A DNA stretch of 64,000 bases, from positions 124,001 to 188,000 of the forward strand of contig JAJAPY010000001.1 in assembly GCA_020523885.1 (NCBI GenBank), in the 5' to 3' direction. The notes under the pieces were generated by a model. The model saw only the letters and a list, made by a program, of their open reading frames with translations, was not told the origin of the DNA and ran no database searches. The translations under genes were made by a program, and so were the position numbers. Below are positions 9,001 to 25,906 of this stretch, one piece after another; position 1 is the stretch's first letter; every line of letters begins with the position of its first letter. This DNA is from Candidatus Liberimonas magnetica. Lineage in GTDB: Bacteria > Elusimicrobiota > Endomicrobiia > Endomicrobiales > JAFGIL01.

Positions 9001-12000
9001 ATAATAGTTTACTGAAAAGACTATTGTATGAAGATAGCCTGGGAGCCTTGGCAGGAATACGCGAATCAATTAGTGTTTTCATATTTTTAAACAAAGAGAT
9101 TAAAAGAACAATTGGCAATATAAATCATTTGGCTGACGGGGTAAATGGTTTGGGATTTCTTACAGAAATTCTAAATACTTCAATTGCGCCCGTAGAAAAA
9201 AATATTAAAGGGGCAGTTGAGCTGTCAAAGAGGTTGGAACAGGGAGAAAAAGCAATACAGAGTTTATTTACTCAAGGCTCTGCTGCTGCCCAGCCGGTAA
9301 ATTTTGAGCAGGAAATGAAGCGGTCAAGTGATGCCTTGTCGGATGAAGGGGCCATTGATAGGTCAAATTTAGAAAAAGTAGCAAAGCTGCTTGAACATAT
9401 AGCCGCTGCTGAAGCCATTGAAGCCAGTGAAAGGAGAGAAAAAGGTGCAGATATAACAGCAAAAATATTGGGCGGCTTTGCATTTTTTGGCGGCCAGGCA
9501 CTTGCCTTGCTATTAATGCTCGTTAAGGTCCTGACAATAGGCCAGGATATTAACATCTTTGGGCACACTGTTAGATTAGGAGTAGGGCCTCTCCTGGCAC
9601 TGATCTTAACCGCTCTTATATTTATTGGCCGAGCTTCCTGGATAATTATGAGCGGGATATACTCTATTATGCAAGACCTTAATGAAGCTTCCGTAAGAGG
9701 TGTAAATATTGCCGCATTAGCAAATCAAGCCGACACCATGGACAAGGCATCGATACAGAAAATGGAAAACGAAATAGCGGAACAAAAAAAGAAAGCTCAA
9801 ATGAGAAGAGAAGCCCGGAAACTTGAAATCAGCCCAACATTAGATTTCGGCACTTTGCGGGATGCGTTTGCTTTTCCAGCTGCAGGTTTGCTGGCAATAG
9901 GGCTGACAGCGGTTTTCTTTCCTATAGCGCCGGGAGTCCTGTTAGCTGCGGTTGCAGCTGCTTTTGGTTTAGGGGTCATCGACTTGTTCACAGGTTTCAG
10001 GCTTTTCGGCGCAGCTGATTTTTTATTTGAAAAACTCATAGAAGGGGTTGTAAATGCAATGAAAGGTTTGGAAAAAGGCATACATGAGAAGGCAGAAGAT
10101 ATAAAATTCAATGAACAATTTATAAGGCAGCTTTTGGATAATCAAATGAAGTCCTGGCAGTCCATGTGGCATGTCTACAACAAGATAAAAGAACTTACTG
10201 ACCAGCAAGATACAATTATCGGAGAAATTAAATCACGCCTTAATGGAGCTCTAAAACGTTTTGATGGTTTCAGCAAAAAAGCAGATGTATTTGAGGGCGA
10301 TATGCAAAAAGAGGCAGAGGAAGCTGCCAGGGCGCTCAGCCGGCTGCAGCAGGCTGTTACGGATATGGAAACCGTTTATAGCAAGGCAGAACAAAAAGCA
10401 ATGGATATTCAAAATAGCATGCAGGAAAGTTCAAATCGTGTGGCAGATTTGCTGATCGGTCTTGAAAAACTGGTTGAAGAAGCAAAAAGAGCCAAGGAAA
10501 GGGCTCAACTTGATGTGGAAGAACAAGTCAGGGAAGCAGATGGACTGATCTCTGAACTGAAAAATTTGATAGTTACACTGGAAACTGTGCGCGCCAGGAT
10601 AAATCAAATGAATAGTTTATTTAACAGCAGCCGTGTTAGTACTTTTCAGGAGCTTATCAATGCAACCAGAGAACAATTTAAACTGCAAGCTGATATTACC
10701 GCCTTAATAAAGAAACAGGATGAAAAACTTAAAGAACTTTCTAAAATTCCCGCGCGGGTTGAAGCAATTAGAAAACGTTTAAAAGAGGAAATTGAAGATA
10801 AGATCTTGCCGGAAGCCCAAAAACTGGCAGAACGGGTCCTTGCTGAACAGAGGTCTGCAACAAAGCTGATGGAGCAATTAGCGCAATTAAGGCTGGAAAC
10901 TCTCAGAGAAGCGCAAATAATTAAAGAGGCCGCAGAAAAAGATGCGGCGATAGTTGCGTCTACCGGCCAGGACTGGGCAGCAAGAAAGGCTGAGCTGGAT
11001 AAAGAAGCCGGAGAAATACAAGCAGAGCTGGATGGGATCAATAGTAAGATAGATGAAGCAGAAAAATTAACACCGCAGATAGAGGCAGGTTTAGCTGATT
11101 TCCAGGGACAATTGGAGATTTTTGAAAATGCCCAGAGAGAGATGAACTTGCATCTTCAGCTGGACAAACTGCAAAGTGCAGAACTTGACGGGCTCATTCA
11201 AGAGTTAAAATTAGCCTATGGGCCTGATAAAGTACACAAAGCTGCTGACGGCACCTATTATGTTTCATCTGTAAGCAATGATAAACTAAACGGCTTATTA
11301 AAAGATGTTAATGAAAAGGCAAAAAAGGCGGCTGAAAACAAAAAAGAAATAGATAGATTAAGATCTGAAGTCCAGGCTTTGCAAAGAAATTTAAACGCGC
11401 GTATTACACAGTTTGACCGGGCATATCAAAAATATACCGAATTAATCAAAGAATATAAAATTCAGGCAGGGCAGCTTATGAAAAAACTGGGTGATGCAGA
11501 GACAACCGGGTTAGCCCGCCTGGATGCAGTAAGAGCCGACATTCAGGTGATGTATGACAATATTATGAAAGTTGACCCGCAAAAGTACATTGGTGAAATT
11601 AAAAAGGTTTATGAGGAAGCCCTGGAGGTAGTTAATTTAAGCGTTTCTGCGCTGCGTCAGAGGGAACGGAATATTGCTGAAGAATCCAGGACAGCAGATG
11701 CATCCGTCAATGCCGCCTACGAAAGATTAGTAAAGGCTATTGCTCAGGCTGTCCAGGCTACGGTTGTTGATCCGTTAAACAAGGCTTTGGCAGATGCTAA
11801 TAAATTAAAGGATTTTATTGAAAAAAATCCTTCAAGAATAGTCATTCCCGGTGTACACGCAGATGACAGGGGAGAAATTACAGGGTTAATTCAAAGCATG
11901 GCCGGTGAATACAGCGTCACTATTAACACTGCCGGCGAAGATTTAGTCGTTGAAATAAGCCAAAAAAACATTGATTCGTTAGAAGATACAAACATAAACG

Positions 12001-15000
12001 GCAAAAGCCTGGAAGAATTAATAGCAATGTTAAAAAGAACAAATGATTATATCCGAAGATTACAAGATTTAAACAGCCAATTAATCAGGCGGTCTAAAGC
12101 TATAATGGATGCTGCTATAGCAAAGCGAAATGAATTAAGCCAGGCAAGATATCAAAAAGAACTAGAAGAGTATAATAGGAGCAGAGACGGCCTTTTGAGG
12201 GAATTAGCTGCAGCAGAAGAGAAACAAAGGACTCAGCAGCAAATGCGGGAAAGGAAAAGGAGTTTGGGGATTTCTGAAGAAGACGATGCAGGCGCTTACG
12301 AATCGGAAGTTCAAAGAAGTGTAGGTGCTATACAAGCTGCTATCAATTCCTTATCAGGAAAGAAACCAGGCAATATAAGCCTTAGAAGAGCAACGCACAG
12401 CGGAGGCCAAAGCCTTCCGGATTTAAAAGCGGGTAATAGGGATGATGGAGGATTAGATACAAGTAGGGTGGCGCTGGGAATTGCGCGAAGGCTTATGGAA
12501 GCCGCACAAGGGTATGCCCCATTAACTTCTGATGAGAGGGCGATATTAGAACGTCAAATAGGAGGACAAGCTGCCGGTGCTGCTTCTGATAAAGCTACCG
12601 CTGAAGCCGCTGCTGAAGCCGCAAAAATAATAGCTAAGCTGGGCGGCAGGAATGCCCGGCCTAAACAAGGGCCGGATGCCCAGGGCTTAACTATTAATAT
12701 TATTCCTCCCTCGCCTGCAGAATTAGCGCAAGAGCAATCAGCAAAGGGTGCCCAAGCGAAATTAGAACAAGCAGGAAGAGATACGGAAAACCTGAGATTG
12801 GCAAAGCTAAGGTTATCAGAACCAGATGAGCATGCTCAAAGGATGCAAGCAGAAAGAGCAAATAGAATCGCATTGGCAATGGAGGAAGCTGCAGAAAGAG
12901 CAAAACTGCCTGAAGGTTTAAGAATGAAACTAGCAGGAGTAACGCTAACAGATCCGGACGGGCCGGTATCCTATTCAGTAACTCAGGAAGGTGCACGAAA
13001 AGGAAGGCTTAGTTCGGAGGAAGGTCCAACCGCTGAAGGCATAATGCGGCAAAGAATTATAGATTTAAATGGCGAGTTGGCAATACAAACTCAAGTAAGC
13101 AGACAAGTCCGTGAAAGCATATCGCAAGAACTAGCACAGCACCCTGTTATGAGAGATAATCCGACAGTTGATGTTGCGGAAGCAAGAGCATCCATGGAGA
13201 GCCGAGGTAGTCGTTTAGCTATTGACCCCCGAGATGGCAGGACTGTAACATTACCACCAGTACATTCAGAACCTGCACAAGCAAAACCTTCACAATCTGC
13301 ACCGGCAAAACCAGCAGCACCTGCACCTGCTGCCGCCCCCGCCGGCCCGGGAGCTAAGGCCTATTCCTTTGTTGGCCGTGCCCTTATTGCTTTAGGTACA
13401 TCTTTGATAGCCTTGGCGATTGTGGAAGCCTTACTTCATATTAGCATTTTAGCCGCTCAGGTTGCGGGATTTTCTTCAGGTGCTGTTATTTTATTTTATA
13501 CTGTACAATTTTCCACTTTAGTTCTTGCAAAATTCAGTAAGGTTACGCCTGAAAAACAACAGCTGGTGTTAGACGAAATAACTGAAACGGTTAATGACTT
13601 AAATTTACAGCAAGCACAGCAGGGACAGGGTAAACCGATTGCCTTGAATACCGGCTATTTATCCAAACGGTGGAATCCGGCGCCTGCGCGAACAATCAAT
13701 GAAGGTGAATATTATGTGCTTGATATAGACCTTAAATTGATTTCCGGCCTGCCAAAATGGCAAAGGGGCCTTATTATAGAACATGAAATAGGGCATATAA
13801 CGGAATCCGGAAATACCGCGAAATCAGAAGCCACGAGAATGGGTAAGATATGGAACGAAATCACTAATTCATTAAAAGACATGAAAAGATTTTTAAGACC
13901 GGCATTAAGACCCGGTGTTGCAGCTGCCGGCGCTGCCCTGCAAATAACAAGGCGGGATAGTTTTGTTTCCAGGCAGGCAAGGAATTTGATGGGCGGATAC
14001 TTGATAAGGATAGCATCCGGGCAGGAAAATGAACAGGAATTAAAGGGTATGGCCAAGCTTGGAGTCAAGCTGGTCAATATAAGGATGCTTGAAGCCGGAA
14101 CCGCCGGCCTGGTTCTTTTAGCAGAGAATATCAATGTGAATGTCGGCAATTCAATGGTTTCAATTAACGTCTACGGGCAGAACAGAAAATTGGAAGATTG
14201 TCCGGGAGAAATTTCAGATATATTTATTGAAGTCTCGGATAAAACTCAGCTCTCGGACCTTGGAATAAAAAATATACTTCCGTATGCAGGTATCAAAACA
14301 ATAATAGAATTAAAAGAAGGTGTTTTAAATGCTGCTAACAATGAACTTATGGCCAAAACCCTGGGAATTTCAGGGTTTAAACCTCTTGCAGTTGAAATGG
14401 ATGACAGGCTGACGGAAGAGAAGTTTCAGGATTATAGCAGCACAGCAGATGGCCTGCTCGCAAAAGATAAGATGCTTGTGTCCAGCCAGTGGGTAAGGTC
14501 TTTAGTCGTACGTTCAGGCAGCCAATTAACAGCTGGGATGGCCAATATGAGAATATATTTGCAGGAATTAAGCGTTGAAATAGGCAACAGGTATGACGCT
14601 AAAGGCTCTTTGCTCAGGAACGAAAAGAAGCACGGAAAAGAAATGTCTGAAGGTGAAGTCTGGGCCAGGGTGATAATAGGTGCGCTGGGCATAGAAGCAG
14701 AAGACAGGATTGTAGGTAAACTTGCAGATGTCAATGATTTCAATGAACAGATGAGAGGCTCGGTAAATGTTATCGAGCTTTCAGGATGGATGCCGAGCGA
14801 CAGCTTAAAACAGGAAAACAGGGGTTTATATGCACCGGTCATTGACAGCCTGGCGGTGGATTTGAGCAAAGAATGCAAACAATACGGAGTAAAAGATAAG
14901 GAGCTGGACAGGATAATGACAGAAATAAAAGACCTTGCTTCGCAGGCCGCAGGCAGAGAGGCAATAAACGGTGTGTTGGCAGATGACTTAAGGAGGCAGG

Positions 15001-16313
15001 AATTTGACCTCGCCAAACGGTTATTAAAGTCCCTATCAGCCGCAGGCAAGGTTAACGAAGCTGAAATAGAAAAGGCTGTTACCGGGAACACTGTTTTAAA
15101 TAACGAAAGTATAAAAACTTTGGCTATGCTCAAGGGTATTACGAACTCGCCGGAAGTCATGAACAAAAACAGCAAAGAGCTTGAAAACCTGTTCGGGGCT
15201 GAGAATCTCAGGACTGCCAGGTATCTGGAGTGGGTCAAGGCCAAACAAATAGCGGACGTGGCAGATCTGATACACAAGAAAGAAGGAAAAGTTGTAATTC
15301 AGTTAAGCGGCGCAGGATTAGAAGATACCGTAAGGCACGAGCAGGTGGTTAATGAAATAATTGAATGGCTGCGCATGTTCGACGGTATAAGGATCGATGT
15401 GTCTGGTTTAGGCGAAGGCCAGCAGGGTATTGAGGTTTTGAGCCTGTTCGCAGGAAAGCTGAATTCTGGGATCAAAATGGAAGCGGCTAAAGAGGCTCTG
15501 CTGCACGGCGCAAGGGCCGGGGATGTGTGGCGTAATAAAACGATCGTGTTTGATATCGGGACAGCTCAGGGGATGGAATGGGAAGGAAATATAAGAGATA
15601 TTCGCTGGAAATACGGTTTCAAGTTTGCCGGAAAATTCATGTACCAGCAAGGCGGAGTCCTGGATGTTGATGTTTCAAAGATAGATAAAACAAAAGGCGA
15701 GGAAACGCTGAAGGAAGTATTTACCCGCGGTGCAGAAGTAGTGAATCTGGTCCTTGGTTCAAGCGAAGGCGATGAACTTATACGGCTTAAAAGCATAGCT
15801 GATAAGTCCGAAGGATTTAATATATTTAACGCCTGCCAGTTAATAAGCAGTTTATCGAGCGCAGTGAAGGTCAGCGGTGAATACGGCAGGTATCTGGAAG
15901 GCTACAAAAGAGGCATGAGGATGATCGAAAACTGCGACGGCATGGACCTGGCTAAAGTAGTACAGATAATAGAAATGCTAAGGAAGGTCGTTAAGATAGA
16001 TGATGAAGGAAGGAAGATACTAAAAGACCTGAAAGCAAATAATTGGAAGGTTAATCATCTAAAGGATATTCTTAAGGAGTTTTCATCGGATAAAGCCGGC
16101 CTTGAAAATGTCGATGCCCTGGTGGCAGAATTGAACAAACTTATATATGAAGCCAATTCCCCGGAAAAAGTAGCTGAGCTTTCAGGGTTTATTAAAGGGG
16201 TATTTGGAGACGGATTTGAACACGCGATGGAAATGAATATTATGGAAAACCTTAAAATGTACGCCCAGCCTGCCGCAGTTAATGCTGTAAAATCAATTCT
16301 TGTTGCCGCATAA
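21..16313 (+). CDS. Giant multidomain protein A (>=5430 aa, 5' end probably outside window)
   Basis: An uninterrupted reading frame covers positions 3-16313. The first ATG is at 21, but the frame is open to the window edge and no convincing ribosome site precedes it, so the true start may lie upstream. Regions in order: glycosyltransferase-like (aa ~47-543), protein-kinase-like (~627-768), PD-(D/E)XK-like (~995-1105), GNAT-like copy 1 (~1312-1494), three copies of a Fic-like module (~1556-2435), GNAT-like copy 2 (~2514-2697), Ala/Lys/Glu-rich linkers, two membrane hairpins (~3144-3344), a coiled coil of about 900 residues, a third membrane hairpin (~4448-4509), a HEIGH motif (4588-4592) and an unrecognised helical C-terminus. 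I recognise no single family. The mixture of enzyme-like, membrane and coiled-coil parts suggests an envelope-associated protein, which is inference. Downstream is a ferredoxin gene with its own promoter. Confidence 0.9.
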   Translation: MAEELQNPSSPFNTALGYESKGFVSDSEAILSIFQSGQKIPELLASPYGNTITIRSFISSDNSRTAELRRSLESYIESINLYHPGEQVRIIVFDDSNGKYADITKALVDEFKGRVEYVGPVEKERFIDEQAKRAGMTPNEQVRNTLLFNKNFIGYYLQKPYIVADEDLTAQAFALNSEAAKLARDIGDRLAKGIPVTDIINELSTKYPSLPDKWKDLLMRYGSVIPVSTLENIIEKVIAGDSDYFKLVPTDVLSAMNNASLRGSAKGGQTVTVDTGLVGDIDFSAFEIISQYISTLDEKYRSGAVGEKISHSIPRFNDILFESEKGIVFMILGMAAAFQMPFPSLKFKLRNDDVLLSFLTAQASESAIREDANVSLYHKRGARNIRNLAAFYKWEIMGSGLLVPLIEDNLNRLIYGGVKPGPSAVSQSYDELAALLQQTSENYDYTGPGEKDRTSKLICDFVDSQLKAAAKYIEDLEKQKSAHPDKAASIDQVIAEFRTEFHLDSQNPRDELYKEVRAFLVDEIQNEAQFIHVWNQLMENRQSQQELQPIIDDLAGKEAPDRKADKTEMKDEQKKEEAKAAPGMTAKRAVQIGDILSAIADKLRSRGTDLKTDAAADMQLSEIVREIDENLDFIELLGIGGFSIVIKVKDKTDNREKALKIAFDKTGANLSHEKELLNRITRANVRNVVKIDREVGSQSILEEYIAGKNLKANTLSVEAGKLTERFYETLMDAARDLAKLNLYLDDINSMMLDENRGYLVDVEMFKEVSEQDGGEQEALKRSIKTIENERWIAIYPRLTKKLGRMPEDAEYEGVLSIFLNGQNGEQSTIDGAIEGFLKEDRNDAEKNDTLRKKLSLLGITSDAEQAGIMGRYGDNIEGLLERISQIEKIIEALEAATGIPDGVKAEIIKKGLRHKDFIKGLRQAGLTDAQIKIALEIIQSLANPKQQEVKGAKKVKENTTEPFARLQELGRGVLSEESFRLLAGDIDGLRKLLRRLIRALRTRDTPNIHGVLGELSGVARLAEAGHAAVYLGLGLGVDIDILTADGLFVEEKNYNQGYTDSREELIEFTGIKTKYEKIEKFLELLKTPTNERSNEALEVLKGIFGDRVDDVINGSYPVNMALSISVEAFAGKGRGHASIQQMLDDIGSNLGNADKLKDIYARIYETSPEIYIWIAIVAPEIRHSMIEWMRDSGHTAGPPQIIELLGRLHNERFADSVLISPFFDPTGKTPPYTFKGKELSTHIVELPADIRTLIEKEFGPAAGINEAVRTAVNAAAGPVIAGADKIAEKVGGAASRSDAGKAAGASPEAKQISFARLFDSEAVLAQDDRLGRIIDIGKVWKSLKPSEKEELARQLTELDYEAFGIRSFESVKKDWMDKLYKANLYILFDNDGIVKGYSETELTAKEAVLNKIAAYQKDRGRGAFLMDTLLGRLKTLDVKALKWKEVGDDIGFYLSYLTENAFYGIEVYYAYSQFTAYPVTFKDLTPQQLEENIAYYERNRARIEAKQWKDLEAKKARSTKGVLSKAKVVVEPEIDAVGSGFWGRSSWDNGKIVPDNELVRDESQILGERMQESNYQRNSLILRSKILELVASGERIDGQKLVDYVRSFNSITMLGYDKFDLNAQKDYSPYFGENKYFGDLDLVSLAGEILGPKKENIIRNAAPLLNKIIELRNAGVQEYIDAVFDFYSFIMFESESKIFATVNNSFLMNMVNSMLRLRGLNGISHGHIDIFILERDIHRRDYGNPNIDVGRSDFVNRVALANPGKVSAEYIQKLYNAAKPFLLKTTMKDWYAMPPIIDESQKAETAGGAAKDLVGELDWEGALEVLWDSIISSSKQQPSGPSDDKSVVERFGSKTNQENYRKNSEAVRRMFVELMGKPGSRSKSIDNMNFDEFAKYLISMHETMVLGEDGKTIYIPPTVLELMKYRESKYINQEALEYKARQYVVDRVAGNFNTPFEEKIIQLTILYRTIREFRKNSINDGEHTLEDIVWDIIEFYYFAMRHFGWPFERVNESFFINMVNAMLQMHGLNPISTEVESRFADLEGEEYYKGFYELIASENSEKLDKNAVNRYKRNDIMSKVIDAMRSLEENRRKDEEEQVKGDSRQNEKKGSTADAFKAAADTLAEPVTAVTDAIAGEVGDVKRSSGSSETGASAAKDLVGELDWEGGLKVLWDSIIESSEQQTSGPTDDKSAVEQFGSKRNQDNYRKNSEAVRRMFYELMGMPGSKAKSIDTMDFDEFVKYLRNMHSTLLLGEDGKTIYIPRTLFTHLKSVDDYSLQEEPLETRATRYVVERVAGKFNRPFKDVAVPLNLVYRALREFRKISVNDGKHTLEDIVWNIAEFYYFAMHHFSWPFERANESLFINLVNGLLQLHHLNPIPTSVELELVKYRGEEFYKRFFELVAEKNSDKLDKDAVNRYKGTDIVSRIVDVMLSQEENGRKDAKEQAEVDAATGEKTQATGTSTDEAIKDAGKRLAQKLKEAGEKKRREAEIDATRNGAQETKAEVTRKVGEMAGGSTAKQISFTRLFDSDAVLAQDDRLGRIIDIRKIWESLSPAEKEDLARQVTEVDNDAFKWSEDLKWMEQLSDSSIDFHILFDNNGIVKGFNVIYPGIGQTTKLDRIATYQTDKERGRGTFLLNTLLSQLKAMDKKELKIEPADETAKNFYISYLRETAYYKLSNDGILIYLDTLKNLTLQQSQENNHNYELINSVGKYIVIGGIVWTINQIWLNGKVFIKDANNEKEETAKALNPDEVHQIFETKEDAEASIEVNADKSTTRAEEKKGAIGTTIDSAFEDAAKRLARKLREAKAKEKTEAEIDATKERAREDVLTKEEVQTGTMTEFTDMQKAGSPAFGKGQTEPQVVPLDNQTAAKAAAQTDEGVVGKVVGKMKEARTGVEEALKTEAARRAAEKEATEKEALQNALRRALGDFQPAAKADEDISSGVKLVKDVFKNYLDAEQMRRLNGIIEIAKGHPALLAELINLTRLLRRLVRALNAYNSLLKRLLYEDSLGALAGIRESISVFIFLNKEIKRTIGNINHLADGVNGLGFLTEILNTSIAPVEKNIKGAVELSKRLEQGEKAIQSLFTQGSAAAQPVNFEQEMKRSSDALSDEGAIDRSNLEKVAKLLEHIAAAEAIEASERREKGADITAKILGGFAFFGGQALALLLMLVKVLTIGQDINIFGHTVRLGVGPLLALILTALIFIGRASWIIMSGIYSIMQDLNEASVRGVNIAALANQADTMDKASIQKMENEIAEQKKKAQMRREARKLEISPTLDFGTLRDAFAFPAAGLLAIGLTAVFFPIAPGVLLAAVAAAFGLGVIDLFTGFRLFGAADFLFEKLIEGVVNAMKGLEKGIHEKAEDIKFNEQFIRQLLDNQMKSWQSMWHVYNKIKELTDQQDTIIGEIKSRLNGALKRFDGFSKKADVFEGDMQKEAEEAARALSRLQQAVTDMETVYSKAEQKAMDIQNSMQESSNRVADLLIGLEKLVEEAKRAKERAQLDVEEQVREADGLISELKNLIVTLETVRARINQMNSLFNSSRVSTFQELINATREQFKLQADITALIKKQDEKLKELSKIPARVEAIRKRLKEEIEDKILPEAQKLAERVLAEQRSATKLMEQLAQLRLETLREAQIIKEAAEKDAAIVASTGQDWAARKAELDKEAGEIQAELDGINSKIDEAEKLTPQIEAGLADFQGQLEIFENAQREMNLHLQLDKLQSAELDGLIQELKLAYGPDKVHKAADGTYYVSSVSNDKLNGLLKDVNEKAKKAAENKKEIDRLRSEVQALQRNLNARITQFDRAYQKYTELIKEYKIQAGQLMKKLGDAETTGLARLDAVRADIQVMYDNIMKVDPQKYIGEIKKVYEEALEVVNLSVSALRQRERNIAEESRTADASVNAAYERLVKAIAQAVQATVVDPLNKALADANKLKDFIEKNPSRIVIPGVHADDRGEITGLIQSMAGEYSVTINTAGEDLVVEISQKNIDSLEDTNINGKSLEELIAMLKRTNDYIRRLQDLNSQLIRRSKAIMDAAIAKRNELSQARYQKELEEYNRSRDGLLRELAAAEEKQRTQQQMRERKRSLGISEEDDAGAYESEVQRSVGAIQAAINSLSGKKPGNISLRRATHSGGQSLPDLKAGNRDDGGLDTSRVALGIARRLMEAAQGYAPLTSDERAILERQIGGQAAGAASDKATAEAAAEAAKIIAKLGGRNARPKQGPDAQGLTINIIPPSPAELAQEQSAKGAQAKLEQAGRDTENLRLAKLRLSEPDEHAQRMQAERANRIALAMEEAAERAKLPEGLRMKLAGVTLTDPDGPVSYSVTQEGARKGRLSSEEGPTAEGIMRQRIIDLNGELAIQTQVSRQVRESISQELAQHPVMRDNPTVDVAEARASMESRGSRLAIDPRDGRTVTLPPVHSEPAQAKPSQSAPAKPAAPAPAAAPAGPGAKAYSFVGRALIALGTSLIALAIVEALLHISILAAQVAGFSSGAVILFYTVQFSTLVLAKFSKVTPEKQQLVLDEITETVNDLNLQQAQQGQGKPIALNTGYLSKRWNPAPARTINEGEYYVLDIDLKLISGLPKWQRGLIIEHEIGHITESGNTAKSEATRMGKIWNEITNSLKDMKRFLRPALRPGVAAAGAALQITRRDSFVSRQARNLMGGYLIRIASGQENEQELKGMAKLGVKLVNIRMLEAGTAGLVLLAENINVNVGNSMVSINVYGQNRKLEDCPGEISDIFIEVSDKTQLSDLGIKNILPYAGIKTIIELKEGVLNAANNELMAKTLGISGFKPLAVEMDDRLTEEKFQDYSSTADGLLAKDKMLVSSQWVRSLVVRSGSQLTAGMANMRIYLQELSVEIGNRYDAKGSLLRNEKKHGKEMSEGEVWARVIIGALGIEAEDRIVGKLADVNDFNEQMRGSVNVIELSGWMPSDSLKQENRGLYAPVIDSLAVDLSKECKQYGVKDKELDRIMTEIKDLASQAAGREAINGVLADDLRRQEFDLAKRLLKSLSAAGKVNEAEIEKAVTGNTVLNNESIKTLAMLKGITNSPEVMNKNSKELENLFGAENLRTARYLEWVKAKQIADVADLIHKKEGKVVIQLSGAGLEDTVRHEQVVNEIIEWLRMFDGIRIDVSGLGEGQQGIEVLSLFAGKLNSGIKMEAAKEALLHGARAGDVWRNKTIVFDIGTAQGMEWEGNIRDIRWKYGFKFAGKFMYQQGGVLDVDVSKIDKTKGEETLKEVFTRGAEVVNLVLGSSEGDELIRLKSIADKSEGFNIFNACQLISSLSSAVKVSGEYGRYLEGYKRGMRMIENCDGMDLAKVVQIIEMLRKVVKIDDEGRKILKDLKANNWKVNHLKDILKEFSSDKAGLENVDALVAELNKLIYEANSPEKVAELSGFIKGVFGDGFEHAMEMNIMENLKMYAQPAAVNAVKSILVAA
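160..1650 (+). other. Giant A domain: glycosyltransferase-like N-terminal region
   Basis: The segment resembles the start of GT-A/GT2-type folds. A strand-helix unit contains SLESYIESINLYHPGE followed by the strand VRIIVFDDSN, and an acidic D165-E166-D167 (VADED) could be the metal-binding DXD. Later, LRNDDVLLSFL and HKRGARNIRN resemble the acidic and basic motifs seen after the acceptor loop in such enzymes. The assignment is by pattern only and may be wrong. Any other GT-A-like nucleotide-sugar-binding fold would also fit. Confidence 0.35.
1900..2330 (+). other. Giant A domain: protein-kinase-like fold
   Basis: A glycine-rich loop (LLGIGGFSIVIKV) is followed by ALKIA, which would carry the ATP-binding lysine, and then by a glutamate-bearing helix (LSHEKELLNRI). 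Further on, YLDDINSMMLD and GYLVDVEMF occupy the places of the catalytic loop (D-x4-N type) and the DFG aspartate (here DVE). The order and spacing fit a compact serine/threonine or aminoglycoside-type kinase fold. The HRD histidine is not kept and the C-lobe is short, so activity is uncertain. Confidence 0.5.
3000..3330 (+). other. Giant A domain: PD-(D/E)XK nuclease-like motif
   Basis: The stretch around aa 1017-1053 reads helix RLAEAGHAAVYLG, then strand VDIDIL with D1038 and D1040, a turn, and strand LFVEEKN with E1050 and K1052. A buried aspartate followed by a strand ending E-x-K is the hallmark of the PD-(D/E)XK nuclease fold, found in restriction enzymes and many polymorphic toxin tips. 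No nuclease family is recognised. Giant B has its own version of the motif. Confidence 0.45.
3954..4500 (+). other. Giant A domain: GNAT-like acetyltransferase, copy 1
   Basis: Starts with KQISFARLFDSEAVLAQDDR and runs through LYILFDNDGIVKGY (beta hairpin) to AAYQKDRGRGAFLMDTLL. In that last segment RGRGAFLM stands where GNAT enzymes bind acetyl-CoA pyrophosphate (R-x-x-G-x-G/A followed by a helix). Copy 2 at 7560-8110 is clearly homologous, sharing most of the first 45 residues. The acceptor substrate cannot be told. The two copies bracket the Fic-like modules. Confidence 0.5.
4685..5390 (+). other. Giant A repeat module, divergent copy (Fic-like?)
   Basis: A divergent first copy of the module repeated at 5449-6300 and 6478-7325. 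The shared core is the helix around NNSFLMNMVNSMLRLRGLNG, which matches NESFFINMVNAMLQMHGLNP in copy 2. Upstream parts are only loosely similar. The fold suggestion is explained under the next copy. Alternatively this is simply an all-helical repeat without known relatives. Confidence 0.4.
5449..6300 (+). other. Giant A repeat module, copy 1 (degenerate Fic-like?)
   Basis: Begins AAKDLVGELDWEG and ends near AMRSLEENRRK. It is followed by a close second copy about 1.03 kb downstream, and the pair is a tandem duplication with long identical stretches such as YRKNSEAVRRMF. Within it, MHETMVLGEDGKTIYIP resembles the flap region of Fic proteins (LH..L..G..G.YR). W2005-PFERVNES with its following helix aligns with the Fic motif HPFxxGNGR, but His is replaced by Trp and the Gly and Arg are lost. 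If the relationship is real, this copy cannot transfer AMP. Confidence 0.45.
6478..7325 (+). other. Giant A repeat module, copy 2 (degenerate Fic-like?)
   Basis: Second close copy of the module, beginning AAKDLVGELDWEGGLK. The presumed active-site segment is WPFERANES, degenerate in the same way as copy 1. Most differences from copy 1 lie in the middle (TLFTHLKSVDDYS against VLELMKYRESKYI). The duplication therefore looks fairly recent, with the helical core conserved. It is followed by an Ala/Lys/Glu linker and then GNAT-like copy 2. Confidence 0.45.
7560..8110 (+). other. Giant A domain: GNAT-like acetyltransferase, copy 2
   Basis: Homologous to copy 1. TAKQISFTRLFDSDAVLAQD opens the domain, and ERGRGTFLLNTLL is the presumed acetyl-CoA loop. 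It is flanked on both sides (7423-7500 and 8393-8476) by a near-repeated linker containing KRLA-KL-EA and ending EAEIDAT. This pattern suggests that the domain plus linker moves or duplicates as a unit. Confidence 0.5.
9450..12900 (+). other. Giant A: two membrane hairpins followed by a ~900-residue coiled coil
   Basis: Hydrophobic pairs occur at aa ~3144-3215 (GGQALALLLMLVKVL and LGVGPLLALILTALIFIG) and ~3283-3330 (GLLAIGLTAVFFPIAPGVL and LLAAVAAAFGLGVIDLF). After these, aa ~3345-4330 is almost uninterrupted charged heptad-like sequence rich in K, E, Q, A and L, typical of an extended coiled coil. The layout resembles a membrane-anchored rod such as those of SMC-like or tethering proteins. 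Which side of the membrane it faces cannot be decided here. Confidence 0.75.
13360..13900 (+). other. Giant A domain: membrane hairpin plus HEXXH metallopeptidase motif
   Basis: Two hydrophobic segments (aa ~4448-4509, ALIALGTSLIALAIVEALL and GAVILFYTVQFSTLVL) precede a short globular stretch ending IIEHEIGHITE. H4588-E4589-I-G-H4592 is a zinc-binding HEXXH, and KSEATRMG some ten residues later could supply the third ligand glutamate. A membrane hairpin followed by HEXXH and a downstream Glu is the layout of M48/M56-type gluzincins. The domain is short, so it may be a remnant. Confidence 0.5.
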
Positions 16314-16384: not shown

Positions 16385-16413
16385 CGCTAACATAAAAAGA
16401 AAATAAAACCAGT

Positions 16414-16470
16414 GATAAGGGGTAAGGTGTAAGGGGTAAGAAACTACTTCAATTCTTACTGCTTATCCCT
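16414..16470. repeat. Word-iterated inverted repeat (GGGGTAAG type)
   Basis: The left arm is a degenerate iteration of GGTAAG/GTGTAAG words (16414-16440). The right arm carries the inverse, CTTACTGCTTATCCC (16455-16469). The core stem GTAAGAA (16436-16442) pairs with TTCTTAC (16453-16459). It lies in the 5' leader of the ferredoxin gene and belongs to the same structural class as the elements at 20785, 22762, 23922/24346 and 31151, but with a different word. Confidence 0.7.
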
Positions 16471-16490
16471 GAATTTAATGGAGGTGTAAA

Positions 16491-20784: not shown

Positions 20785-20870
20785 CCAGCTATAAGTTATA
20801 AGAAAAGGCAACTGCATTTAATGGTTTTGATTTTTCTTAAAGCTTATAGCTTAAAACTTATAGCTTATAA
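20785..20870. repeat. Word-iterated inverted repeat (GCTATAAG type) between pcrA and argA
   Basis: The left arm GCTATAAGTTATAAGAAAA (from 20788) is inverse to the right arm, in which CTTATAGC and ACTTATAGC words are iterated (20834-20870). The stop codon of argA (20865-20867) is part of the right arm. It may also act as a weak bidirectional terminator between the convergent genes. Confidence 0.7.
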
Positions 20871-21317
20871 CTGCCTTGCGAGCGGGACTTCGCCGCAGTC
20901 CGGGAAAAAAGGGCACCTGACGCATTCACCCCAGATCTTATGAGGCAGCTCTTCCCTTGCTATTTTCTTATAACCTATTTTTTCAAAAAAGTTAGGCACA
21001 AAGGTAAGGCAGAATACCCTGTTTACTCCGAGGTTCTTTGAGATCTTATGGCATTCTGACACCAGTTTTGACCCGAGCCCTTTTTTATGGAATTTCTCGT
21101 CAACAGCCAGGGCCTTTACCTCTGAGAGGTCTTCCCAGGATACATGCAAAGCGCAGCAGCCGGCTATTTTGCCTTTTTCCTCGGCTACTACGAACTCCTG
21201 GATATTCTCATAAATTTCGCTTAACGGCCTTGCCAGCATCTCTCTTTTTTGCGCGAAATGATTTATCAAGGCATGTATAGCTTTCACATCTCTTACTTTG
21301 GCTTTCCGTATTTTCAT
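20865..21317 (-). CDS. argA: Short N-acetylglutamate synthase (ArgA-like GNAT)
   Basis: A 150-residue GNAT acetyltransferase of the short ArgA group, which lacks the amino-acid-kinase domain. LAVDEKFHKKGLGSKLV is the acetyl-CoA loop. The family-specific C-terminus HKIWGECVRCPFFPDC carries four cysteines. It would make N-acetylglutamate for arginine synthesis. A GGAG ribosome site lies six bases before the ATG. The stop codon is donated by the repeat at 20785-20870. No other arginine genes are in view. Confidence 0.85.
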   Translation of the reverse strand: MKIRKAKVRDVKAIHALINHFAQKREMLARPLSEIYENIQEFVVAEEKGKIAGCCALHVSWEDLSEVKALAVDEKFHKKGLGSKLVSECHKISKNLGVNRVFCLTFVPNFFEKIGYKKIAREELPHKIWGECVRCPFFPDCGEVPLARQL

Positions 21318-22012: not shown

Positions 22013-22750
22013 TTATTGTTTATCTTTATAAATGCCAAGTGGGAATGTTTTTAAAAATACTTCATCTATCCACTTGATAGATTCGTTTGGTGTCATTGCC
22101 CAGTTGACAGGGCACATGGAAAGGACTTCAACCAAGGAAAACCCTTTATTATTTATCTGGTTCTGAAAAGCTTTCTTTATCGCCTTCTTAGCCTTGATTA
22201 TATTTTTAGGGTTATTAACAGCAACTCTTTCAAGGTATGCCGCACCCTGTGTCTGAGACAAGAGTTCGCAGACCTTCAAAGGGGGGCCGTCTCTTTTAAG
22301 ATCTCTTCCTGCGGGAGTGGTAGCCGTTTTCTGGCCAAGAAGGGTGGTCGGCGCCATTTGGCCGCCGGTCATTCCGTAGATAGCGTTGTTTACGAAAATA
22401 ACAGTTATATTTTCACCCCTGTTCGCCGCATGTACTGTTTCGGCGGTGCCGATAGCTGCCAGGTCTCCGTCACCCTGATAGGTGAATACAACTCTGTCCG
22501 GCAACACCCTTTTTATCCCGGTTGCAACCGCAGGAGGCCTGCCGTGAGGCGCTTCTGTGACGTCAACATTGAAATAATCGTAAGCGAATACAGCACAGCC
22601 TACAGGAGCGATACCTATGGTTTTTTCTCTTACCCCAAGCTCATCTATAACTTCTGCCACAAGCCTGTGGATTATCCCGTGCCCGCAGCCGGGGCAGTAT
22701 AAATGCTCATTTGATTTAAGCGATAAAGGACGGCTTAATATACTTTTCAT
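22013..22750 (-). CDS. korB: 2-oxoacid:ferredoxin oxidoreductase, beta (TPP-binding) subunit
   Basis: 245 residues. CPGCGHGI is the cluster/TPP-associated motif at the N-terminus, and [13 protein letters not shown] with [14 protein letters not shown] is the thiamine-pyrophosphate-Mg motif. [12 protein letters not shown] and TATTPAGRD are typical of KorB rather than of pyruvate oxidoreductase. The gene follows korA after a 97-base junction filled by a word-iterated inverted repeat, which is unusual for a tightly coupled operon. The ATG lies directly after the repeat, in the sequence CAGTTATATG. Confidence 0.93.
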
Positions 22751-22761
22751 ATAACTGATTT

Positions 22762-22861
22762 AATGCAAAATGCAAATTGCAAAATAAAAAATGAAAAATA
22801 AAGATTATTATTAAGGTTTTAAATTTGCATTTTGCACTTTGCAATTTTCATTTTGCAATTG
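22762..22861. repeat. Word-iterated inverted repeat (TGCAAAA type), empty copy between korA and korB
   Basis: The left arm AATGCAAAATGCAAATTGC (from 22762) is inverse to the right arm TTTGCATTTTGCACTTTGCA (about 22824-22843) and beyond. Only about 25 AT-rich bases lie between the arms. The korA stop codon (22848-22850) is inside the right arm. The structure matches the pair that flanks the four-helix-bundle gene at 23922-24379, and both end at a CAGTTAT-ATG start context. Confidence 0.8.
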
Positions 22862-23912
22862 TTTTTATCTCTTGAAGCACTTCCTGTTCATTGACAAGCC
22901 CGCCGCCGGGCCTGCCTAAAAACTCAACCGGGCACTTACCGTTTACGGCAAGACGGACATCTTCAACCATCTGGCCCAGGTTCATTTCTACAACCAGAAA
23001 CTTTCTTCCGGGTTTTGCATTATCAGCTATTACTTTTTCAGGGAACGGCCAGAGCGTTATGGGCCGTATTAAGCCGGCTTTTATTCCCTGCTCTCTTGCT
23101 TTTCTTGCTGCGACCTTTGCGACCCTTGCAGCTATACCGAAAGCAACGAGTATTATATCCGCATCTTCAATGTTTTCAGACTCATATCTAACTTCATTTT
23201 TTTTAATACTATTATACTTTTCATTAAGCTTCCAATTAAGCTTTTCAAGTGCTCCATCGTCCATTAAAAGCGACCTGTGAAACCTCGGAGGCCTGCCTTT
23301 TGCCCCGGTCAAAGCCCAAGCTATTTGTTGTTGGTCTTTACTGGTTACTGGTTTCTGGTCACTGGTCACTATGGTTACCGGTTCCATCATCTGGCCTACT
23401 ACACCGTCTGCAAGGATTAAGACCGGGTTCCTGTATTTAAAGGCAAGGCCGAAGGACATATTTGCAAAATCATACATTTCCTGTACTGTTGACGGCGCAA
23501 GGACTAGCATCCTGTAGTCTCCGTGGCCGCCGCCTTTTGTGCTCTGGAAATAGTCGCCCTGAGAACCAGCAATATTGCCCAGGCCCGGACCGCCGCGCTG
23601 GACATTGACTATTAAAGCCGGAAGCTCGCATCCCACCAGGTACGATATGCCTTCCTGTTTTAAGGATATCCCGGGCGAAGAAGAGGAAGTCATGGCAAGG
23701 GCGCCTGTACCTGCAGCACCGAGCACCATGTTTATAGCAGCAAGCTCGGACTCTGCCTGCAAAAACACGCGGCCAAGCTCAGTCATTCTTTTTGACATGT
23801 GAGCAGGTACCTCGTTTTGCGGCGTAATAGGATAGCCGAAATAGGCCTGGCATCCTGCCGCGATAGCCCCTTCGCATAAGGCTATGTTTCCTTTTAATAA
23901 TATCTTATTCAT
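22848..23912 (-). CDS. korA: 2-oxoacid:ferredoxin oxidoreductase, alpha subunit
   Basis: About 354 residues, the KorA subunit holding the pyrimidine and transketolase-like domains. NIALCEGAIAAGCQAYFGYP opens it, and GAAGTGALAMTSSSSPGISL and the C-terminal FLGRPGGGLVNEQEV are diagnostic. I start at MNKILLKGN (23912). The frame continues ten codons upstream to 23942, but those codons translate the TGCAAAA word repeat. Residues encoded at 23334-23383 (TSDQKPVTSKDQQQ) also come from an iterated word sequence inserted in frame between the VVGQMMEPV and WALTGAKGRPPR blocks. The C-terminal IAK-stop lies in a third repeat. Confidence 0.93.
   Translation of the reverse strand: MNKILLKGNIALCEGAIAAGCQAYFGYPITPQNEVPAHMSKRMTELGRVFLQAESELAAINMVLGAAGTGALAMTSSSSPGISLKQEGISYLVGCELPALIVNVQRGGPGLGNIAGSQGDYFQSTKGGGHGDYRMLVLAPSTVQEMYDFANMSFGLAFKYRNPVLILADGVVGQMMEPVTIVTSDQKPVTSKDQQQIAWALTGAKGRPPRFHRSLLMDDGALEKLNWKLNEKYNSIKKNEVRYESENIEDADIILVAFGIAARVAKVAARKAREQGIKAGLIRPITLWPFPEKVIADNAKPGRKFLVVEMNLGQMVEDVRLAVNGKCPVEFLGRPGGGLVNEQEVLQEIKTIAK
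23334..23383. repeat. In-frame word-iterated insertion (ACTGGTTACTGGT type) within korA
   Basis: ACTGGTTACTGG, TTTCTGGTCACTGGTCACT and TGGTTACCGGTT are variants of one 7-8 base word. On the coding strand they translate to TIVTSDQKPVTSKDQQQ, a polar stretch in a linker of KorA. There is no frame disruption. Confidence 0.65.
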
Positions 23913-23921
23913 AACTGACTC

Positions 23922-23958
23922 AATGCAAACTGCAAAATGCAAATTGAAAATTGAAAAA
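23922..23958. repeat. Word-iterated arm (TGCAAAA type) left of the four-helix-bundle gene
   Basis: AATGCAAACTGCAAAATGC, then AAATTGAAAATTGAAAA: degenerate iterations of one word. It lies between the restored stop of the four-helix-bundle frame (23959-23961) and the korA start, and is inverse to the arm at 24346-24379. Confidence 0.75.
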
Positions 23959-24013
23959 TTATTTACTTTTCTTTGCTGTTATTATTGATTTTGCAATTAT
24001 TTTGGTTAATTCT

Positions 24014-24310
24014 TCACATTCTTTTATTTAATGTTAAAATGCTTAAATTCTTTACTAAATTCGTTCTTTCAATTAGTTTTAGACAATACGTAGTTTCTCT
24101 TAATTCTTTAAGGACTATTTGCATCTTGTGAACAAAATCCAAACGGCTTTCAGCGCTGCAAGCCTCTTCATAATTAGCTCCGCTGGATGTTGCTGACCTA
24201 ATAATTTGTTTTCCTATAATCCTTAATTCTACTCTGTCATAAAAGTGAGATGTCAATTTAATTATTTGTGCTGCAAAGTCTAATAATCTTTCAGAAATAT
24301 TATTTTGCAT
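24014..24310 (-). CDS. Four-helix-bundle protein (S23/IVP family), C-terminally frameshifted
   Basis: 98 residues as read. RSATSSGANYEEACSAES and IVLKELRETTYCLKLI are the signature blocks of the family first seen as 23S rRNA intervening-sequence proteins, related to Avd of diversity-generating retroelements. After TLNK the frame runs out in RM-stop. One base fewer in the A4 run (T4 on the + strand, 24022-24025) would let it continue as ECEELTKIIAKSIITAKKSK to a stop at 23959, the expected C-terminus. The gene is therefore a recent frameshift or a sequence error. Its ATG lies in an ATGCAAAAT word. It interrupts korD-korA and is flanked by inverted word arrays. Confidence 0.85.
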   Translation of the reverse strand: MQNNISERLLDFAAQIIKLTSHFYDRVELRIIGKQIIRSATSSGANYEEACSAESRLDFVHKMQIVLKELRETTYCLKLIERTNLVKNLSILTLNKRM

Positions 24311-24345
24311 TTGTTTATCATTCAGCAGTTATTTTTTGTTTAATA

Positions 24346-24379
24346 CTATTTTGCATTTTGCACTTTTCACTTTGCATTA
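24346..24379. repeat. Word-iterated arm (TTTTGCA type) right of the four-helix-bundle gene
   Basis: CTATTTTGCATTTTGCAC followed by TTTTCACTTTGCATT. It is inverse to the arm at 23922-23958. The korD stop codon (24367-24369) is inside this arm, just as the korA stop is inside the equivalent arm at 22848. Confidence 0.75.
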
Positions 24380-24582
24380 TCTTTATGTACTTCTATACAG
24401 ACTTCCGGGCACATCAGGTAGCAGAAACCGCAGCCTGTGCAGCCGTTTTCTGCTATAGGGACAGCCGGATGGTAGCCTTTTTTGTTGAATTCCTTTGAAA
24501 TTATGAGTGATTTTTTAGGGCAGACTTCTATGCAGAGAGTGCAGCCTTTACACCTGTCGGTTTCAATAATTACTTTGCTCAT
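24367..24582 (-). CDS. korD: 2-oxoacid:ferredoxin oxidoreductase, delta (2x[4Fe-4S]) subunit
   Basis: 71 residues with two ferredoxin motifs: C-KGC-TLC-IEVCP and C-TGC-GFC-YLMCP. It is the first gene of korD-korA-korB-korC and passes electrons between the catalytic dimer and free ferredoxin. The last residues NAK and the stop are encoded by the word repeat. The distance to korA is unusually long (454 bases) because of the inserted four-helix-bundle unit. No good ribosome site is seen before the ATG. Confidence 0.9.
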   Translation of the reverse strand: MSKVIIETDRCKGCTLCIEVCPKKSLIISKEFNKKGYHPAVPIAENGCTGCGFCYLMCPEVCIEVHKDNAK

Positions 24583-24624
24583 ATAAAAATATATTACATC
24601 TTTAGAGAGAAAAAGTCAAAAAAT

Positions 24625-25728
24625 TCAGCGCACTGAAATATCCGTCAGGAATTTGGCTTTTAATATGCCTTCATCCCATTCGCCTTGGGGGGTGGAATCC
24701 CAGATAATACCTCCGCCTATCCCCATCTCTCCTTTCCCTCCTTCAAGAAGCAGTGTCCTTATCGGGATATTGAAATAGAAACTCCTGTCCGGAGCTATAA
24801 AACCTATAGCGCCGGTATAGATGTTCCTCTCTTCTGTTTCTATTTCGCGTATGACCTCCATGGCACGTATCTTGGGCGCTCCAGTAACTGAGCCTGAGGG
24901 GAATAAGGAAGCAAAAATATCATAAACTGAGATATTGTTTTTGACCTTTGCTTCAATGCTTGAGGTCATCTGATATAAAGTCTTGTATGATGAGACTTCG
25001 AACAAGCGCGTAACATTTACATCTTCTCCGATCCTGCCCAGGTCGTTCCTTAGAAGGTCTGTTATCATGACATTTTCAGCGCGGTTTTTTAAGTCATATT
25101 TGAGCTGAAAACGCGCGGCAAAGTCAAGCACAGGGTTTTTTCTGCGGGGCCAGGTCCCTTTCATCGGTTTTGTGCTGGTGAGCCTGCCGTTTCTTTTCAT
25201 GAACATCTCCGGCGATAATGACACTACCTTAAAACGGTCAGCTTCGATGTATGCCGGGTACGGCACGGGCTGGTCATGCAGGAGCCTTGAAAAAAGAGAA
25301 GTTTCGCTGCCTTCAAATTGAAATTTCATTTTTATACAATAGGTGATCTGGTACACATCGCCTATTGAAATAAAATCATGGATACGGCGTATATTCTGTT
25401 GGTAATCTTCGTAAGAAAGAGATGTTTTCAGCCCGCTTACTCGGAAAGTACCGGATGCTTTTTTAAGGAAATCCTTTGCTGGTACAGGCCGGCTGTAGCA
25501 CCCCATATAAAGAAGCGGGAATTTATAGGTTTTATCGAGTTTCAGTTTGTCCTCAAAACCGTAGCCTGCCTCATAAGATAAAAATCCCGCGATGTAGTAA
25601 CCTTTGTCAAGCAGGGACTCAAGGGCTTCAAAAGCTCTCTTAAGATCCGAAGGAGTATTGCAGGAAATGACAGCTTTGGGCGAGCTGAAAAGAAGGGGTT
25701 TATTCTCAAATCGTGTGTATACCAGCAT
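24625..25728 (-). CDS. pabB: Aminodeoxychorismate synthase component I-like
   Basis: 367 residues of the chorismate-binding family. STKPMKGTWPRR carries the lysine of the PIKGT-type motif that marks PabB rather than TrpE. LLRNDLGRIG, YQMTSSIEAKV and FPSGSVTGAPKIRAMEVI are the Mg- and chorismate-binding blocks. It lacks about 100 N-terminal residues relative to full PabB, as short PabB forms do. Role: 4-amino-4-deoxychorismate synthesis for folate. No pabA or pabC is in the window. It is preceded by a 185-base gap with hairpin repeats, so it is probably transcribed apart from metXW. Confidence 0.85.
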   Translation of the reverse strand: MLVYTRFENKPLLFSSPKAVISCNTPSDLKRAFEALESLLDKGYYIAGFLSYEAGYGFEDKLKLDKTYKFPLLYMGCYSRPVPAKDFLKKASGTFRVSGLKTSLSYEDYQQNIRRIHDFISIGDVYQITYCIKMKFQFEGSETSLFSRLLHDQPVPYPAYIEADRFKVVSLSPEMFMKRNGRLTSTKPMKGTWPRRKNPVLDFAARFQLKYDLKNRAENVMITDLLRNDLGRIGEDVNVTRLFEVSSYKTLYQMTSSIEAKVKNNISVYDIFASLFPSGSVTGAPKIRAMEVIREIETEERNIYTGAIGFIAPDRSFYFNIPIRTLLLEGGKGEMGIGGGIIWDSTPQGEWDEGILKAKFLTDISVR

Positions 25729-25813
25729 AAGGCATCCATTGGTTCGGCCGGGATGCCCGTTGAGCGCGGGCTAGAACATAGCCTTGAATTTCTTTTATCC
25801 CGCGGCATGGAAT

Positions 25814-25906
25814 CCCCCGTCTTCAGACGGGGGAGGAATGCGTTCGCATTCGTCCCGAGAGGGCGACAGATTTAAGGAGCCTCCGGCTTCAGCCGGAGGG
25901 GTCGCC
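25814..25906. repeat. REP/BIME-like cluster of three hairpins between pabB and metW
   Basis: CCCCCGTCT-TC-AGACGGGGG (25814-25833), GAATGCG-TT-CGCATTC (25836-25851) and CCTCCGGCT-TC-AGCCGGAGG (25880-25899). An outer stem GGCGAC (25862-25867) with GTCGCC (25901-25906) encloses the last hairpin. Such GC-rich paired hairpins in an AT-rich intergenic region resemble REP elements or the ends of IS200/IS605-type elements. No transposase gene is nearby. It may also terminate the metXW transcript. Confidence 0.75.

Follow-up and report, generated by a model that had tools for sequence, protein, structure and literature searches.

The operon for a 2-oxoacid:ferredoxin oxidoreductase (kor) in the window, i.e. 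the whole 64,000-nucleotide stretch of Candidatus Liberimonas magnetica DNA that was analysed, raises the question of why a small four-helix-bundle gene lies between korD and korA, bordered on either side by an array of a short repeated word in inverse orientation. The segment concerned extends from 23922 to 24379. The S23/four-helix-bundle family to which the gene belongs is common and, to our knowledge, without known function. An earlier note on this DNA took the segment for a mobile cassette with ends of iterated words. That architecture was found; movement is indicated by patterns of presence and absence and by differing junctions. The kor cassette is probably a degenerate example of a very widespread kind of small mobile cassette, here called IVP elements. 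In an IVP element, a single gene for a four-helix-bundle protein of the ring-forming Avd/S23 fold stands between two arrays that are reverse complements of each other and are built from a word of 7 nt or, in some clades, of 8 or 9 nt.

The kor cassette and other arrays in the window

In profile searches, the mechanical ORF of the inserted gene scored 60.6 bits with PF05635 (23S_rRNA_IVP), for which the curated cut-off is 33.8, and 80.6 bits with TIGR02436 (four helix bundle protein), for which it is 24, in agreement with the earlier note that a gene of the S23/IVP family interrupts korD-korA. The AAAA run at 24022-24025 has one A too many; the resulting frameshift cuts the ORF short, and the C-terminus, ECEELTKIIAKSIITAKKSK*, resumes in another frame with its stop at the edge of the arm (Table 1). 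The kor IVP appears to be a decayed copy, the extra A being due either to real decay or to an assembly error. PF05635 is the cargo of the cassette, within which no nuclease, transposase or reverse transcriptase gene was found; a search of 22500-24700 gave no Rfam match.

The two arms, which the earlier note had described as inverse TGCAAAA-word arrays, have a best ungapped match of 19 to each other, a score that shuffling reproduced once in 1000 pairs (mean 10.4). Ten TGCAAA words lie in the 500-base stretch from 23901 to 24400, where 1.8 are expected and 500 shuffles gave a maximum of six. The start codon of the kor IVP lies within the repeat word (AAATGCAAAATAAT), also as described. The stop codon of korD falls inside the first word of the arm that follows, and that of korA inside the first word of the array at the korA-korB junction. 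Genome-wide, TGCAAAATGCAAAA occurs 31 times and its reversed control not at all. In this genome TGCAAAA is, in addition, part of a separate, abundant GC-hairpin palindrome family. In this composite palindrome (L001-L028), arms of TGCAAAA enclose a pair of GC hairpins, GTGTCCGC..GCGGAC and TCCCGC..GCGGGATAC, and AAGTTAG..CTAACTT often borders the whole.

Table 1. Coordinates of the kor cassette, its neighbouring genes and further heptamer arrays in the window.
Feature	Position	Strand	Remarks
IVP/S23 four-helix-bundle gene, frameshifted	23959..24310	-	PF05635, TIGR02436; mechanical ORF 24014-24310
Upstream arm (in gene sense)	24346..24380	-	heptamer array of GTGCAAAATGCAAAA type, TTTGCA words
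Downstream arm	23921..23962	-	inverted heptamer array, TGCAAA words; plus strand ATGCAAACTGCAAAATGCAAATTGAAAATTG
korD	24367..24582	-	ferredoxin-like subunit, upstream of cassette
korA/VorB	22848..23912	-	2-oxoacid:acceptor oxidoreductase alpha, downstream of cassette
korB	22013..22750	-	after korA-korB mini palindrome
Cargo-less mini palindrome	22764..22858	-	TGCAAAA-type word of the kor cassette; between korA and korB
Heptamer array inside korA frame	23335..23372	-	word TTACTGG/CCAGTAA
Cargo-less mini palindrome	16407..16480	+	word GTAAGGG (GATAAGGGGTAAGG .. CTTACTGCTTATCCC)
Cargo-less mini palindrome	20787..20874	.	word TTATAGC; between two convergent genes

Arrays in the window are not confined to the cassette, and three cargo-less mini palindromes are included in Table 1. 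The one between korA and korB forms an RNA hairpin of -29.3 kcal/mol (z -4.9). For the kor cassette taken as a whole, the RNA folds only mildly better than shuffles do (z -1.7). The array inside korA is translated in frame and gives rise to an extra variable-loop segment that is absent from relatives. Two GC-rich hairpins (CCCCCGTCTTCAGACGGGGG and CTCCGGCTTCAGCCGGAGG), of a kind seen near DUF559 genes, lie at 25800-25900 beside a pabB/trpE-like gene, and a single ORF of 5430 aa with repeated domains occupies 21-16313, ahead of the region.

Inverted arms, repeat period and fold of IVP genes at large

The source genome has six PF05635 genes, each with flanking arrays of a period near 7. The words at the six loci all differ (TGCAAAA, TAAGCTG, GTTGTGA, CAGTGAA, GGACGAA and AACAATT), and a fixed TGCAAAA-tagged family was ruled out, as the word changes from one IVP locus to the next.

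Flanks were scored by comparing the upstream flank with the reverse complement of the downstream flank, an ungapped score of at least 12 being taken as inverted arms. Of the loci that could be tested, 31 came from the order and 77 from about 20 phyla, and such arms were detected at 95 of these 108. In the controls the rate was 3% for windows at a distance of ~0.8 kb and 7-10% for mismatched loci. The order sample, drawn from the source genome and 11 others, gave 27/31 loci with arms versus 66/930 mismatched pairs and 1/28 distant windows; strong lag-7 arrays were present in 19 of its 62 flanks, and in 0/310 shuffles and 0/59 far windows. From about 20 phyla, 80 further loci (77 testable) were collected with a five-sequence profile of one subfamily, a sample that is biased to the main IVP subfamily and Bacteroidota and contains partly non-independent loci. 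Arms were present at 68/77 of these, versus 197/1950 mismatched loci (Fisher p ~1e-53, although p-values from mismatched pairs overstate independence) and 2/68 far windows. Among the nine failures in this set, arrays are nonetheless clear at several loci, in some cases directly oriented, and only L089, L114 and L134 have no evident arm pair. Arms were also seen at the four plasmid copies checked, weakly on a Trichormus plasmid, and no IVP match was found in 50,697 phage records.

The strong enrichment in both samples bears out the suggestion of the earlier note that the association of gene and iterated words is general, with the correction that TGCAAAA is particular to this locus and host. The note had further stated that N-termini of other family members often encode such words; for the most part, the arrays are found immediately outside the start of the IVP coding sequence.

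The word itself is free. Below 60% identity, how alike two proteins are says almost nothing about how alike their words are. This argues against simple sequence-specific binding, and the word as a protein-specific binding site was ruled out on these grounds. Nor is there a conserved family-wide terminal sequence of the kind expected of an insertion sequence or transposon, since words differ by locus. What is conserved is the period. Among 68 loci in which both arms are strong, the two periods are equal in 64, namely 49 (7,7), 12 (8,8) and 3 (9,9), as compared with ~40 expected from the marginals. The period changes 13 times on the IVP protein tree, and at least 14 times in shuffles (0/300 as low). 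In three genomes (G014, G019 and G024), 8-nt arms accompany one IVP clade and 7-nt arms another within the same host. Given this clustering and the mixed periods within hosts, the period belongs to the lineage of the element and not to the host.

Complementarity of the arms is conserved likewise. At the gmk-nadD junction of Flavobacterium, for elements with IVP genes of 70-75% nucleotide identity, an arm matches its own partner with a score of 18.8 versus 11.4 across loci; the arms of one element change together and stay complementary. Orientation is also constrained, in that both neighbours are sense to the IVP gene in 69 loci versus both antisense in four (p 2e-16), and the upstream array starts at a median of 1 nt past the upstream stop codon.

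The predicted model of L009, an intact paralogue from the source genome, has a pLDDT of 92 and matches 2GSC with a TM of 0.92; it also matches 2RLD, and Avd, a protein of diversity-generating retroelements (DGRs; 4DWL and 8UB7), with a TM of about 0.8. The kinship with Avd asserted by the earlier note is confirmed at the level of this predicted fold; an association with reverse transcriptase is not. The polar residues Q34, R37, S41, N45, E48 and E71 (aligned L009 core numbering) are 98-99% conserved in 110 diverse members. To judge from its citation in PMC4990558, a published Xanthomonas structure gives the family a homopentameric ring.

Probable mobility of the cassettes and alternative explanations

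The earlier note had proposed comparing orthologous kor operons, and among relatives the site was found empty, occupied at another junction or filled by arrays alone. Spacers are empty and only 3-13 nt long in G001 and G003, the IVP gene lies at korB-korC instead in G014 and G022, and cargo-less arrays with other words are present in G002, G005 and G037. The earlier note would have been refuted by orthologous operons that all carry the gene with unrelated flanks, or by flanks that lack enrichment; neither was observed. Heptamer arrays occur at kor in 7/12 IVP-positive versus 2/18 IVP-negative genomes (p 0.0125). In 200-kb samples, densities thus being based on sampled stretches of genomes, five palindromic arrays were found in IVP-positive genomes versus none in IVP-negative ones. 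The corresponding comparison of IVP presence with array presence within Flavobacterium was uninformative because the family is nearly universal in that genus (196/200 genomes).

Other operons show similar patterns. Among gmk-nadD spacers from 91 Flavobacterium species, 19 contain IVP elements and nine are no longer than 30 nt; the remainder are mostly palindromes, either heptamer/octamer ones, in which more than ten words are represented, or those of the CACAGAGATTCGCAAAG type. This junction (L252-L346) is a hot spot of turnover within the genus, being empty, loaded with IVP or occupied by palindromes of more than ten words. In Bacteroidota fad operons, IVPs with 86% amino acid identity and related words occupy different places in two genomes, L079 lying upstream of fadB and L081 at the fadB-fadA junction; the fadA-acd junction is used by other IVP lineages. 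An IVP gene is found at purN-purB in three genomes, the words of both arms being related but diverged. Excision, insertion or target-site duplication was not seen directly in these operon comparisons, in which empty sites are too diverged and arrays abut the stop codon. Presence and absence, together with close relatives at different junctions, suggest that IVP cassettes are mobile.

If so, the element would move as DNA or via a copy, gene and arms together, as the operon comparisons indicate. By analogy with intervening sequences (IVSs) of 23S rRNA, and given the folding of the mini element, the arms may pair into a stem in the host transcript, which would limit harm to the operon, be open to processing by RNase III and leave the IVP ORF to be translated from the transcript of the host. 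The link between period and lineage and the ring fold are consistent with an IVP ring that reads the regular heptad spacing and not a fixed sequence, and the ring might recruit enzymes of the host that copy the whole element or the arms. Mini palindromes would be leftovers of internal deletion, and slippage combined with strand-to-strand copying between arms could account for fast change of the word in arms that stay matched.

A bolder form of this proposal is that IVP elements are a new class of mobile element with ends set by period and mutual complementarity and not by sequence, in which the ring gauges, on RNA or single-stranded DNA, how far apart the repeats of its arms lie (7, 8 or 9 nt), any word is possible and free to change, and 23S rRNA IVSs, Nostoc intron hairpins and many intergenic palindromes are products of the system. 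We hold this only tentatively, at somewhat under even chances. If true, a protein lineage that sets the repeat period without a fixed word would be a mode of recognition unusual for mobile DNA.

Cargo-less palindromes outnumber loaded elements, and arrays may therefore be made without IVP. This leads to the strongest alternative, in which heptad palindromes are made by the host through slippage and template switching between arms and act as hot spots, the IVP genes being captured or tolerated passengers. Cargo-less palindromes with many words are common, and other small genes (PF13366 and PF04480) lie within other kinds of inverted repeat, as such a process would allow. Against it stand a period that tracks the IVP lineage inside one host, arms of 7, 8 or 9 nt that go with IVP genes but not with RAYT, GxxExxY or DUF559 genes, and an enrichment of arrays in IVP-carrying genomes. 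On balance a host origin of the palindromes is unlikely, yet deserves to be taken seriously.

A regulator acting at the level of RNA is less probable still. The IVP ring would in this case bind heptad-phased leader RNA and tune its own operon, as a domesticated and not a mobile gene; TRAP, which binds phased triplets, offers a model. Sense orientation in operons, arrays placed at the stop codon, the fold of a ring-forming family and the stable RNA hairpin of the mini element would all fit. A domesticated regulator is difficult to reconcile with patchy presence, unrelated host operons and unrelated words, and with a kor copy that is frameshifted at a site that is empty in relatives.

It is very improbable that the IVP protein is part of a retroelement, acting as an Avd with a reverse transcriptase and spreading the arms by cDNA. 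The fold does match Avd and the DGR ribonucleoprotein, and PF05635, which has been compared with Avd, recurs near DGRs (PMC10053308). However, no RVT_1 (PF00078) reverse transcriptase was found in the source genome, which is 97.8% complete and carries six IVP genes, and within the order a reverse transcriptase is present in only three of 12 IVP-positive genomes, making a DGR-like role unlikely; a DGR-type Avd acting with a reverse transcriptase was ruled out for the source genome. Chance or AT-rich low complexity, to which the AT-rich kor arms might point, is ruled out for practical purposes, as shuffles, far windows and mismatched loci fail to reproduce the arms and the GC-rich words CTCGGAC and GGACGAA show the same pattern as AT-rich ones.

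Comparison with known systems

The reading of the kor segment as a mobile IVP cassette places it in what looks like a widespread group of small mobile elements, largely unrecognised so far, that are carried within operons, and gives the S23 family a context, nearly every tested copy being the cargo of an inverted heptad-array cassette. No statement that the whole PF05635 family lives between inverted heptad arrays was found in the literature searched, which covered few subscription journals and no preprints.

IVP proteins resemble Avd in fold, and both Avd structures (4DWL and 8UB7) hold several Avd chains. They differ from Avd in the lack of a reverse transcriptase, in sequence (12% identity) and in gene context.

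In REPtrons and TIRtrons (PMC3733652), too, inverted repeats enclose a small gene, copies without cargo are dispersed, and the terminal sequence is particular to each element. Their RAYT is an HUH transposase, whereas IVP has no known catalytic site and the kor cassette has no Y1/HUH gene; in addition, the terminal inverted repeats of RAYT genes in these genomes are non-periodic, unlike IVP arms. In related genomes, RAYT/Y1_Tnp genes (L189-L218) lie between inverted terminal repeats (GGGGACGTTGTTAA.., GGGGTCAGGTCT.., GTGTCAGGCTT..) in 21/25 cases, with no 7-nt period, an arrangement that corresponds to the known TIRtrons. The same arms around other small genes were ruled out, the inverted repeats of RAYT, GxxExxY and DUF559 genes being of other kinds. 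GxxExxY (PF13366) genes are located between inverted CACAGAT/CGCAGAT-type arrays at L219-L224 and in gmk-nadD spacers (e.g. L259-L276), and cargo-less CACAGAGATTCGCAAAG-type palindromes are found in Flavobacterium genomes with PF13366 genes. The PF13366 arrays are possibly a sister system to the IVP cassettes. DUF559 (PF04480) genes at L228-L246 are flanked by CCCCTTTT..AAAAGGGG inverted hairpins in 5/10 cases.

Degenerate 7-nt units with fast turnover have been described in the P6b heptanucleotide hairpins of the Nostoc trnL intron, on both sides of the stem (PMC4476775), and in the TAACTGA repeats of Beggiatoaceae (PMC4679880). They share these features with IVP arms and differ in having few words, no link to an IVP gene and no cassette. 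The four-heptamer GGACCGG elements of Geobacter, each a run of roughly four heptamers located within a gene or in an intergenic region, are alike in being dispersed heptamer arrays; the portion of PMC2700814 consulted draws no link to IVP.

The closest counterpart is the IVS of 23S rRNA. In Coxiella burnetii, the IVS includes an S23p ORF, a 28-bp terminal stem and tandem GACAGAT heptamers in a number that varies between strains, and RNase III cuts at the first repeat (PMC4990558). An S23/IVP ORF within a terminal inverted-repeat stem, heptamers before the ORF and sense orientation in the transcript are common to both, and the IVS is regarded as selfish (PMC4990558), much as IVP cassettes are here read as mobile. 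The two differ in location, as the IVS sits in rRNA and IVP cassettes, including that of kor, lie outside 23S rRNA in protein operons and tRNA neighbourhoods. They differ also in the standing of the repeats, since the heptamers are a local detail in PMC4990558 but form the general ends of IVP cassettes, with a free word and a fixed period. IVS elements are probably one outpost of the large class of IVP cassettes, and the 23S rRNA IVS with its heptamers, the heptanucleotide hairpins and the dispersed intergenic palindromes would then be joined in one testable system.
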